Assembly: GCF_003586285.1 (NCBI RefSeq)
Contig: NZ_QUBR01000001.1
Coordinates: 1,853,373-1,917,372 of the forward strand
DNA from: Aeromicrobium endophyticum
GTDB lineage: Bacteria; Actinomycetota; Actinomycetes; Propionibacteriales; Nocardioidaceae
Direction of reading: 5' to 3'
Length of the DNA: 64,000 nt
Both the position numbers and the translations under genes were made by a program. The notes below the pieces were generated by a model, which worked only from the letters and a program-made list of their open reading frames with translations, was not told the DNA's origin and did no database searches. Numbering within the stretch: position 1 is the stretch's first letter; every line of letters begins with the position of its first letter. This document shows positions 46,286-48,643 of the stretch, one piece after another.

Positions 46286-46723
46286 GTGACCGGTCCCGTG
46301 CTGCTCGGCGTCGCCCTCGTGGCGACGGTCGCCGTCGCGCTTCTCATGCGCTGGAAGAACGGCCGGTTCTCCGCCGCGGTGGCGGACGAGGACGACGACA
46401 CGGTCGAGCGGCTCACGGCCGAGCAGATCGGCGCGCCACTCGGTGAGCGGGCCACCTTGGTGCAGTTCTCCAGCGCCTTCTGCAGCCCGTGCCGCGCGAC
46501 CCGCGTCGTGCTGGCCGACGTGGCGGCGTCGGCACCGGGCGTCGTGACGGTCGACATCGACGCCGAGTCGCACCTGCAGCTGGTGCGCGACCTGTCGGTG
46601 ATGCGCACGCCGACCGTGCTGGTGCTCGACGCCGAGGGCGCCGTGACGACCCGCGCCTCGGGTCTGCCCCGTCGCGAGCAGGTGCTGGCGGCCCTCGACC
46701 GGGCCACCGCCGAGCGTCAATAA
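46286..46723 (+). CDS. membrane-anchored thioredoxin-like protein (ThiX type)
   Basis: 145 residues: an N-terminal helix (VLLGVALVATVAVALLM), a linker, then thioredoxin fold with FSSAFCSPCRATR (active-site CSPC rather than CGPC) and the cis-Pro in MRTPTVLVL. Family members reduce disulfides or pass electrons to sulfurtransferases. GTG 46286 lies six bases from TAGGCT, so leaderless. Orientation relative to the membrane is not certain; the charged residues after the helix suggest a cytoplasmic catalytic domain. Confidence 0.85.
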   Translation: MTGPVLLGVALVATVAVALLMRWKNGRFSAAVADEDDDTVERLTAEQIGAPLGERATLVQFSSAFCSPCRATRVVLADVAASAPGVVTVDIDAESHLQLVRDLSVMRTPTVLVLDAEGAVTTRASGLPRREQVLAALDRATAERQ

Positions 46724-46746
46724 CTGCTGCCACCGTTGACAGCGCG

Positions 46747-46815
46747 CCACATGGTGAGACCGGTATCCACATCGTGAGACTCGCGGGTGTCCGGCGAGCA
46801 CGGTGTCCCTAGTCT
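46747..46815 (+). promoter_or_regulatory. direct repeats and -10 box before the leader peptide
   Basis: CCACATGGTGAGAC (46747-46760) and CCACATCGTGAGAC (46767-46780) are 14-bp direct repeats, 13 of 14 identical, with a 20-bp period (two DNA turns). TAGTCT (46810-46815) is the -10 box, six bases before the ATG of the leader peptide. A regulator of sulfur genes may bind the repeats. Confidence 0.6.
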
Positions 46816-46821
46816 GGTGCC

Positions 46822-46902
46822 ATGTTCCGGACGACACACCTGACGCGCCGACGTGCAGTGGACAACTGCCGCACGCGCTCGTCGCTGTGTCGCACGCGCT
46901 GA
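46822..46902 (+). CDS. leaderless cysteine-type attenuation leader peptide
   Basis: 26 codons: MFRTTHLTRRRAV, then DNCRTRSSLCRTR. The LTRRRAV-x-x-CR-x5-LCR pattern is that of actinobacterial leader peptides placed before sulfur genes, where Cys codons sense charged Cys-tRNA. It starts directly at the expected transcript 5' end (TAGTCT, six bases, ATG). About 80 bases separate its stop from the DUF4395 gene, including a GC palindrome GCCCGCCC/GGGCGGGC (46932-46947) able to form the attenuating hairpin. It is too short for usual annotation. Confidence 0.75.
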   Translation: MFRTTHLTRRRAVDNCRTRSSLCRTR

Positions 46903-46981
46903 CCGAACGTCCGTCAGTGCCGCACGCCCCCGCCCGCCCGGGCGGGCCCGTCGTGCCGTCCGTCCCAGTGCAGGAGCATCC

Positions 46982-47422
46982 ATGTCCCAGCCCACCCAGG
47001 TCGACCCACGCGGTCTCCGGGTCGTCGCCGGCCTGACCGCGACGGTCCTGGCGCTGGTGCTGGCGATCCCGTCCGAGCCGGTGCGCATCGTGCTGCTGGG
47101 CGTGCAGGTGGCCGTGTTCGCGATCGCCGCGTTCGTCAGCCTCGGCGCGTCGCCCTGGGCCCTGGTGTTCGCGAAGCTGGTGCGCCCGCGCATCGGCCCG
47201 CCGTCCGAGCTCGAGGACGCCCGTCCTCCGCGGTTCGCGCAGCTGGTCGGCCTCGTGTTCACGAGCGTCGCGCTGGTCTCGCTGCTGGCGGGGGCGACCA
47301 CGGTGGCCCTCGTCGCCACGGCGTTCGCGCTCGTGGCGGCCCTGCTCAACGCCGTCGTGGGCCTGTGCCTGGGCTGCGAGATGTACCTGGCCCTGCGCCG
47401 GCTCACGCCGGCCGGCCCCTGA
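46982..47422 (+). CDS. DUF4395 family membrane protein
   Basis: 146 residues, four helices (about 13-31, 36-53, 80-101, 104-126), with the family features PRGLRVVAGLTATVLAL and NAVVGLCLGCEMYLAL, the latter holding a Cys pair (CLGC) within the membrane edge. DUF4395 proteins occur beside thioredoxins and rhodaneses and may handle sulfur or redox equivalents across the membrane. AGGAG precedes ATG 46982. The leader peptide ahead predicts cysteine-dependent expression. Confidence 0.83.
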   Translation: MSQPTQVDPRGLRVVAGLTATVLALVLAIPSEPVRIVLLGVQVAVFAIAAFVSLGASPWALVFAKLVRPRIGPPSELEDARPPRFAQLVGLVFTSVALVSLLAGATTVALVATAFALVAALLNAVVGLCLGCEMYLALRRLTPAGP

Positions 47423-47498
47423 CCGCACGATCCATCCCCAAGACCGATCCGACCAACCAGACACAACCAACGCCCATCGGGCACAACGGAGGTAACTC

Positions 47499-48347
47499 AT
47501 GAGCCGCGAATCCGCGCTCGTCACTGCAGACTGGGTCGAGGCCAACCTCGACGACCCCAAGGTCGTGCTCGTCGAGGTCGACGAGGACGCCAGCGCATAC
47601 GACACCGGCCACATCCCCGGTGCCATCAAGATCGACTGGAAGAAGGACCTCCAGGACGGTGTGCGCCACGACTTCGTGAGCAAGGAGAAGCTCGAGGCGC
47701 TCCTGTCGTCCAAGGGCATCGCCAACGACGACACCCTCGTGTTCTACGGCGGCAACAACAACTGGTTCGCCGCGTACGCCTACTGGTACCTGGCCTACTA
47801 CGGCCACGAGAACCTGCGCCTGCTCGACGGCGGCCGCAAGAAGTGGGAGCTCGACGCCCGCGAGCTGAGCAAGGACGTCCCCGAGCGTCCGGCCACGACC
47901 TACACGGCCAAGGACGCCGACACCTCGATCCGTGCCTACCGCGACGAGGTCATCGACGCGATCGGCACCAAGAACCTGATCGACGTCCGCAGCCCCGACG
48001 AGTTCGCCGGCCGCCTGCTGGCCCCCGCGCACCTGCCGCAGGAGGCCGCGCAGATCGGCGGTCACATCCCCACGGCCGGCAACGTCCCGTGGAGCAAGGC
48101 CGCGAACGACGACGGCACGTTCAAGAGCGATGACGAGCTCAAGGCGCTGTACGCCGACGCCGGCCTCGACGAGGGCAAGGACACCATCGCGTACTGCCGC
48201 ATCGGCGAGCGCAGCTCGCACACGTGGTTCGTGCTGAAGGAGATCCTGGGCTACGACAACGTCAAGAACTACGACGGATCGTGGAGCGAATACGGCTCGC
48301 TGCGCGGCGTGCCGGTCGCCCTCGGCGACGAGCCGGGTGCTGCCTGA
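47499..48347 (+). CDS. thiosulfate sulfurtransferase (CysA2-like rhodanese)
   Basis: 282 residues with two rhodanese domains. The first lacks Cys at its active loop (FYGGNNNWF), the second has the catalytic loop YCRIGERSSHTWF with the persulfide-forming Cys. IDVRSPDEFAGRL and GGHIPTAGNVPW are typical. Very close in wording to mycobacterial CysA2/CysA3 thiosulfate sulfurtransferases. GGAGG stands before ATG 47499, and its stop overlaps sseC (TGATG), the same pairing as in mycobacteria. Confidence 0.92.
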   Translation: MSRESALVTADWVEANLDDPKVVLVEVDEDASAYDTGHIPGAIKIDWKKDLQDGVRHDFVSKEKLEALLSSKGIANDDTLVFYGGNNNWFAAYAYWYLAYYGHENLRLLDGGRKKWELDARELSKDVPERPATTYTAKDADTSIRAYRDEVIDAIGTKNLIDVRSPDEFAGRLLAPAHLPQEAAQIGGHIPTAGNVPWSKAANDDGTFKSDDELKALYADAGLDEGKDTIAYCRIGERSSHTWFVLKEILGYDNVKNYDGSWSEYGSLRGVPVALGDEPGAA

Positions 48348-48643
48348 TGTGCGGCGCGGTCAAGGGCGGCCCCTCGCTCGAGGGCGTCGACGTCGAGAAC
48401 CAGGCGGTCATCCAGGGCATCGTCACGCGTGACGGCCAGCCCGTCGGCAACGCGTACGTGCGCCTGCTCGACCGCACGGGCGAGTTCACGGCCGAGGTCC
48501 CGACCTCGGCCACCGGCCAGTTCCGCTTCTTCGCCGGTCCCGGCGAGTGGACGCTGCGCACGCTGGCGCCCAAAGCGGTGTCGGTCGACAACGCCGTGAC
48601 GGCTGCCAAGGGCGTCGTCGCCGAGGTCGCGGTCGCCGTCTGA
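48347..48643 (+). CDS. sseC: DUF1416 protein SseC
   Basis: 98 residues; MCGAVKGGPSLEGVDVENQAVIQG at the start and VIQGIVTRDGQPVGNAYVRLLD with a transthyretin-like beta fold are the DUF1416 hallmarks, including the N-terminal Cys-Gly. It always travels with a thiosulfate sulfurtransferase and is thought to take part in sulfur transfer. Start overlaps the sulfurtransferase stop by one base. Confidence 0.92.
   Translation: MCGAVKGGPSLEGVDVENQAVIQGIVTRDGQPVGNAYVRLLDRTGEFTAEVPTSATGQFRFFAGPGEWTLRTLAPKAVSVDNAVTAAKGVVAEVAVAV

Follow-up and report, generated by a model that had tools for sequence, protein, structure and literature searches.

A putatively leaderless cysteine leader peptide with a conserved UGU codon ahead of the DUF4395-rhodanese-SseC operon of Aeromicrobium endophyticum

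We propose, with fairly high confidence, that a leaderless and ribosome-dependent cysteine attenuator controls the DUF4395-rhodanese-SseC operon of Aeromicrobium endophyticum, and that a single UGU, codon 23 of a short leader ORF, would act as its sensor (Table 1). The proposal comes from a comparative sequence analysis of a 64,000-nucleotide stretch of the genome, running from 1853373 to 1917372 of contig NZ_QUBR01000001.1 and hereafter the window, and of related loci. As to its kind, the element appears to be a known one, a cysteine leader peptide in a split-Cys variant; the fixed single UGU together with the conserved peptide scaffold would be an unexpected refinement.

Table 1. Features of the leader and the sulfur-gene operon (positions are those of the window)
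Feature	Coordinates	Strand	Basis or remark
Operator-like tandem repeat CCACATGGTGAGAC-CGGTA-TCCACATCGTGAGAC, pattern CCACATnnTGRGAC	46747..46780	+	just upstream of the leader promoter
-10 element TAGTCT	46810..46815	+	last base 6 nt before the leader ATG
Leader ORF, 26 codons, ATG to TGA, peptide MFRTTHLTRRRAVDNCRTRSSLCRTR	46822..46902	+	ORF list, profile matches, relatives
Codon 16, first Cys, TGC	46867..46869	+	other residue in some relatives
Codon 23, second Cys, TGT, proposed sensor codon	46888..46890	+	TGT fixed among relatives outside f7
Hairpin P1 enclosing the leader stop codon	46896..46920 (46896-46903 with 46913-46920)	+	complement in the genus, pair changes, fold
Hairpin P2, GC-rich palindrome	46922..46956	+	folds
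Shine-Dalgarno AGGAG of DUF4395	46972..46976	+	sequence
DUF4395 gene, start ATG 46982	46982..47422	+	PF14340, E 8.2e-39
Rhodanese-type sulfurtransferase gene, two rhodanese domains	47499..48347	+	PF00581, E 2.9e-36, two stretches
DUF1416 gene (SseC type)	48347..48643	+	PF07210, E 3.5e-39

The first-pass annotation had read a 26-codon frame at this place, which the ORF coordinates confirm, with Cys only at codons 16 and 23. A thioredoxin-like gene is the upstream neighbour of the leader and, at the other end, the ATG of the DUF1416 gene shares one base (48347) with the stop codon of the sulfurtransferase gene. The leader ORF has no match in Pfam and the locus has none in Rfam, and the closest named relatives at the locus belong to Aeromicrobium, with a top identity of 86 percent in Aeromicrobium sp. 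Root472D3. Judged by the comparison within the window's genus the frame is not a chance one, as the peptide, from the conserved Leu onward, hardly changes between loci while synonymous codons replace one another, giving 30 distinct nucleotide sequences among 34 loci. Codons are numbered here as in the window ORF and scaffold positions are counted from the conserved Leu (codon 7) as position 0, codons 16 and 23 being positions 9 and 16; f-numbers are family labels of the relatives' genomes and L-numbers denote loci.

Relatives were surveyed in three rounds. Round one comprised 181 DUF4395 loci of the window, its genus, order and class, in which the leader was called by a peptide HMM blind to codons and was found at 152 loci; the other 29 fell below the HMM threshold and were dropped, L188 among them being recovered in round two. 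In this first round the leader was present at 151 of the 153 loci with the whole DUF4395-rhodanese-SseC operon compared to 1 of the 28 DUF4395 loci without it, and of the two operon loci lacking a call L188 was later shown to have a leader and L045 reaches the contig end. This close association in silico upholds the earlier assignment of the leader to the DUF4395-sulfurtransferase-SseC genes. Round two, with 44 loci (40 of them new, mostly from other families), gave 32 leaders, the 12 sub-threshold loci being dropped, and round three, a differently named collection in partial overlap with round one, gave leaders at 61 of 80 loci, the remaining 19 being likewise sub-threshold and dropped. L046, whose stop codon is absent from the stretch examined, was left out. 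As the sequences are related, counts across loci are not independent.

The leader frame had also been described as beginning at the predicted transcript start, and in silico the spacing of the -10 element agrees with this description, in the window as well as among relatives. Of 180 distinct upstream regions, 170 have a TANNNT box whose last base is 5-9 nt before the leader start codon, as compared to 6.9 expected from single-base shuffles, and the spacing is 6 or 7 nt in 164 of those 170. Among the third-round leaders the box was found in 29 of the 41 new ones, many of the 12 without it being from Lentzea. On this comparative evidence a leaderless start, with transcription from or next to the AUG, is well supported.

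The identity of codon 23 is the main evidence for our proposal. Outside f7, all of 157 distinct leaders, which carry 22 family labels (two of them for the window's family), encode Cys at this position by TGT. Cys at the codon-16 position is present in 131 of them, 129 times as TGC and twice as TGT, and the other 26 of the 157 have another residue there. The neighbouring DUF4395, rhodanese and SseC genes contain 623 TGC and 29 TGT among 652 Cys codons; measured against the usage of these genes, codon 23 departs by 4.49 bits, followed by Ala12 with 1.97 (GCA) and Arg24 with 1.25. The bias to UGU is not due to context, since in leaders with Cys-Arg at both sites the first is TGC-CGN and the second TGT-CGN in 114 of 115 (the one left has UGU twice), an extra Cys at scaffold position 14, two codons before codon 23, is TGC in 16 of 18, and the wobble bases beside UGU vary, Leu22 being CTG, CTC or TTG and Arg24 any of the four CGN codons. 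The rule was first noticed in rounds one and two, and in round three it holds in 60 of 61 leaders and in 40 of the 41 new distinct ones. It extends to the 30 loci matching the NF042934 profile, some with DUF4395 downstream and several with other genes. Of these loci 27 have a recognisable leader (L239 and L258 are without the motif and L244 is a false match), and UGU stands at the homologous position in all 27. In f7 the codon-23 position is TGT in six of nine leaders and TGC in three (L186, L226 and L228). Retention of UGU across GC-rich families that favour TGC is otherwise hard to explain, which suggests that its identity at codon 23 is under selection. The first-pass annotation had suspected that split Cys codons imply a different sensing pattern, and the comparison does point to one sensor codon, UGU23, rather than to a poly-Cys run. 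UGU is wobble-read by a single tRNA-Cys(GCA), and rare codons sharpen attenuators. Most simply, UGU would be kept as a rare, wobble-read codon, the one most sensitive to falling Cys-tRNA.

Several side observations concern the same codon. The exception of round three, L305, has a shortened leader, LTRRRAVDYCRCDS, that lacks the codon-23 Cys; it comes from a metagenome-assembled genome and may reflect decay or a sequencing error. UGU is kept in the NF042934 leaders L246, L245, L250 and L255 from other families, and the genes after these leaders look by eye like a dicarboxylate-type symporter, a reductase and a flavin reductase. The Arg codon that follows UGU leans to A/T-ending forms (1.25 bits).

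The peptide that leads up to codon 23 is constrained as well. Arg at scaffold position 3 is found in 157 of 157 leaders with six codons in use, and Asp at scaffold position 7 (Asp14) in 157 of 157 with both codons in use, 133 GAC and 24 GAT. Fixed residues written in varying codons indicate selection on the part of the peptide that lies 6 to 16 residues before codon 23, and as these residues would be inside the ribosome tunnel with codon 23 in the A site, a contribution of the nascent chain to the function of the leader is plausible. A stronger version, in which the LTxRRAVDxxR scaffold in the exit tunnel would itself stall the ribosome at codon 23 upon a shortage of Cys-tRNA or a fall in another sulfur signal, with the Cys codon as the trigger and one such codon being enough, is a possibility that we take seriously without favouring it. 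Besides the two fixed residues, it agrees with the occurrence of single-Cys leaders in f21, f12 and f43, also ahead of other operons, and with the retention of the scaffold in the poly-Cys leaders of f7. However, the conservation could also serve early elongation or the RNA, and the preference of the scaffold Ala for GCA (1.97 bits) indicates that part of the constraint is on nucleotides. Of 149 distinct leaders, 88 have the rare codon GCA at this Ala (codon 12, 46855-46857, and its homologues).

The number of Cys codons varies from two to five within the window's genus (NCRTRSSLCR, NCCTSSSLCR, NCCMCSSLCR, NCCTCSALCC). L038, with five, and L014, with four, are both members of this genus in which Cys replaces Arg positions, and their leaders may represent natural intermediates on the way from split to poly-Cys forms.

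Based on these data we propose the following course of events for the attenuator with UGU23 as sensor. Transcription would begin at or beside the AUG, as the promoter comparison supports in silico, and a ribosome would translate the leader immediately. With ample Cys-tRNA the ribosome would pass UGU23 and exit at the UGA 12 nt on, upon which the downstream RNA would adopt a closed form. With scarce Cys-tRNA it would pause once UGU has entered the A site. Its footprint would then span the last codons to the stop codon, and the waiting ribosome would block the closed form, allowing expression of DUF4395-rhodanese-SseC. On comparative grounds the stop region and the Shine-Dalgarno site would pair with each other in the closed form of f21, f19, f12, f17 and some others. 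The partner of the stop codon in the window's genus would rather be a nearby GUCAG, and the output there may be translational or may be Rho-dependent termination in the C-rich gap.

In 136 of 159 leaders UGU and the stop codon are 12 nt apart, a spacing at which a ribosome waiting at UGU would just cover the stop region. The complement of the stop region was sought near the Shine-Dalgarno site and soon after the stop, and compared with dinucleotide shuffles. Near the Shine-Dalgarno site it was present at 51 of 180 loci as compared to 10.4 expected, with 17 of 17 loci in f21, 7 of 7 in f19 and 4 of 4 in f12, and in the rest of the window's family at 7 of 46 as compared to 1.7 expected. Soon after the stop it was present at 31 of 180 loci (15.0 expected), 25 of the 31 being in the window's genus. 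Flanking bases of the pairing change together: UCCUGACG is found with CGUCAGGA (L080 of f21 and L202 of f12), UCCUGAAC with GUUCAGGA (L105 of f12) and UCCUGAU with AUCAGGA (L093 of f19, other f19 loci having G-U there). A ribosome modelled at codon 23 cuts the mean opening cost of the Shine-Dalgarno site by 3.9 kcal/mol in f21, 4.5 in f12, 5.8 in f4 and 2.0 in f19, and one modelled at the first Cys position (codon 16) lowers it by 0.15 kcal/mol or less. Sequestration of the Shine-Dalgarno site by the leader stop region is supported, by comparison and modelling, in f21, f19, f12, f17 and f4.

In the window such a release of the Shine-Dalgarno site is not supported. The opening cost of the site is 3.1 kcal/mol in the free RNA and 4.1 with a ribosome at codon 23, so that this fold test does not tie stalling to Shine-Dalgarno release, and in the window's genus the mean gain in opening is 0.75 kcal/mol, exceeding 1 in 11 of 39 loci. 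Pairing of the leader end with the Shine-Dalgarno region had looked likely by eye in this genus (GCGCUG with CAGYGC, CUGUGU with GCGCAG) and found no support, with duplex-test percentiles of 0.54 and 0.60, the stop complement present at 2 of 39 loci as compared to 3.3 expected, and no footprint-fold gain in the window. The duplex test was at or below chance also in f3, f30, f39, f24, f8, f35, f25, f36 and f23, and at the Kribbella-like loci (f3, 29 tested) neither kind of stop pairing was found. By eye, the gap of several f3 loci (L001-L005, L007, L009 and L010) is different and strongly conserved, with AGGCGGCG directly behind the stop codon, a stretch resembling CGUCGCCU that matches it further along, and CUCC shortly before the Shine-Dalgarno GGAG.

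Two hairpins are predicted in the gap of the window. The first, P1, encloses the leader stop codon, and its core, GUCAG or AUCAG soon after the stop, is present at 25 of 39 genus loci as compared to 4.5 expected. Among 26 motif-bearing loci the base after the stop forms 22 C-G, 2 U-A and 1 U-G pairs with 1 mismatch, and the second base before the stop 14 G-C, 9 G-U and 1 A-U pairs with 2 mismatches; pairs further outward are mostly mismatched, and 13 genus loci are without the motif. The second, P2, is the GC palindrome that had been noted between the leader and DUF4395 and that was recovered here as a GC-rich hairpin. The 97-nt segment between codon 23 and the start of DUF4395, codon 23 included, folds modestly better than chance (z -1.88, 7 of 200 shuffles being as good). 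In the best fold of the window from codon 23, a 4-bp helix, GCAC (46892-46895) with GUGC (46968-46971), closes P1 and P2 and abuts AGGAG; a ribosome at codon 23 would cover this helix, and the opening-cost calculation predicts no release. An earlier comparison of folds, over the stretch from the leader ATG through the first 30 nt of DUF4395, showed small mean shifts. No terminator-like site of the kind that defines a classical terminator-attenuator was found on the + strand at 46600-47600.

A Rho-dependent output, in which Rho would load on the C-rich gap after the ribosome exits at UGA and a ribosome at codon 23 would alter P1 and thereby Rho access, is in our view less likely than not, yet a serious alternative with features of the gap in its favour. 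The C/G ratio of the leader-DUF4395 gap is 2.03 in the genus (37 loci) and above 1 in every family label tested, and as to the excess of C over G, 1.4 percent of 64-nt stretches on the same strand, and 5.2 percent when either strand is counted, match the window gap. Rho has already been proposed (PMC1262725) for leaders of Mycobacterium, Propionibacterium acnes and Bifidobacterium longum. Against this, C-richness is indirect evidence, and in f21, f19 and f12 the pairing of the stop with the Shine-Dalgarno site already gives an output.

That UGU is fixed by RNA pairing and not by decoding is improbable: in the window, UGUGUCG is complementary to CGACACA of the 5' part of the same leader, and at some genus loci CUGUGU can pair with a GCGCAG next to the Shine-Dalgarno site, but no partner common to different families was found, and the wobble bases of Leu22 and Arg24 vary while UGU is constant. 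A reading of the ORF as the gene of a small Cys protein with a metal or redox function, in a non-regulatory RNA, accords with the strong conservation of the peptide but is very improbable, as the number of Cys ranges from one (f21) through two to five (the window's genus) to eight (f7, e.g. L182), the codon is fixed and not the residue alone, and Pfam gives no match.

The attenuator with UGU23 as sensor has a clear kinship with leader peptides already described. The window peptide matches NF042933 (leader_Ms5788A) with 24.5 bits and E 1.6e-5, below the curated cut-off of 45, and NF042934 (cis_reg_atten) with 19.6 bits and E 5e-4, below the curated cut-off of 27; at this level the resemblance to actinobacterial Cys leader peptides remarked upon earlier is borne out. 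In its own genome the window locus is the best match for both profiles, which have one and four additional weak matches, respectively (E 0.03 or worse). The f7 copies occupy the same position before the same operon, e.g. LTKRRAVDLCRVAGCCCCCCSC, and contain up to eight Cys (L182); as L182 reaches 55.4 bits on NF042933, above the cut-off of 45, the f7 leaders would be of the mycobacterial type. In this comparison the window ORF occupies the place of the published poly-Cys leader and lacks the Cys run. Like the Ms5788A family it precedes DUF4395-rhodanese-SseC, has the LTxRRAVD scaffold, as in the f7 copies, and a leaderless start; unlike that family it has no poly-Cys tract and instead two separated Cys codons with one fixed UGU, and Shine-Dalgarno release is unsupported in the window. 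With the NF042934 leaders it shares the L..R..VD..R..S..C layout and the UGU rule, whereas several of those members precede other genes.

The poly-Cys leaderless short ORFs of mycobacteria are attributed to Canestrari et al. 2020 (PMC9031893, PMC9094748, PMC13236596), and a cysteine response is reported for those of M. smegmatis (PMC9031893, PMC13236596). Actinobacterial Cys leader peptides with runs of Cys codons and no conserved terminator were predicted in 2005 (PMC1262725). The cys-operon and cbs leaders of Mycobacterium, P. acnes and B. longum resemble the window leader in being short ORFs with Cys codons near the stop and no conserved terminator, and differ from it in their runs of Cys codons and in the operons downstream (PMC1262725). 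uORFC-8-2 before cysS of Rhodobacterales likewise places Cys codons in a short uORF ahead of a Cys-related gene, but with tandem Cys codons, UGC dominant and a U-run consistent with an intrinsic terminator (PMC8632094). As UGC dominates in this alphaproteobacterial cysS uORF (PMC8632094), UGU is not a general rule of cysteine attenuators. The UGU rule, the single-Cys forms and the stop codon as anti-Shine-Dalgarno are unstated in the literature examined, which consists of parts of these papers and of PMC8079986 and PMC11133741 and has Canestrari et al. 2020 outside it.

The locus may also be under transcriptional control. The tandem pattern upstream of the promoter, with up to 3 mismatches, has its sole match in its own genome at the window locus (46747-46780). 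Related repeats occur across the genus, with 1.50 half-sites per locus as compared to 0.10 expected, and half-sites are enriched also in f3, f21 and f12 and absent from f7, f19 and f17. When up to 1 mismatch is allowed, the single site CCACATnnTGRGAC occurs 24 times in the genome and a reversed control 6 times. The surroundings of 10 of the 24, picked by eye, were inspected, and genes were scanned at four of these (L339, L340, L353 and L357): one site is in the gap separating a sodium:dicarboxylate symporter from a SufS-like cysteine desulfurase, and the others are at the starts of an O-acetylhomoserine/O-acetylserine sulfhydrylase, a threonine synthase and an oligopeptide-type binding protein. 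No recognisable sulfur metabolism was seen near the remaining six inspected sites. As a lead only, the repeat could mark a sulfur regulon and serve as its putative operator.

Runs of hungry codons are the usual explanation of how attenuators work. The UGU leaders suggest that a poly-Cys run is not needed, as one synonymous choice, UGU over UGC, is retained in every counted leader that is not poly-Cys, beside a near-fixed peptide and in GC-rich families. More tentatively, there may be an actinobacterial superfamily of leaderless single-codon Cys sensors, in which the scaffold would hold the ribosome so that the conserved UGU becomes limiting, poly-Cys forms would be derived and amplified, and the output would have been rewired repeatedly, often with the stop codon as anti-Shine-Dalgarno. 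The combination of UGU and scaffold offers an annotation rule for operons that are likely to be controlled by cysteine, and whether a single wobble-read codon sets the sensitivity of an amino-acid sensor, with the nascent chain helping, is a testable question that the UGU leaders pose.
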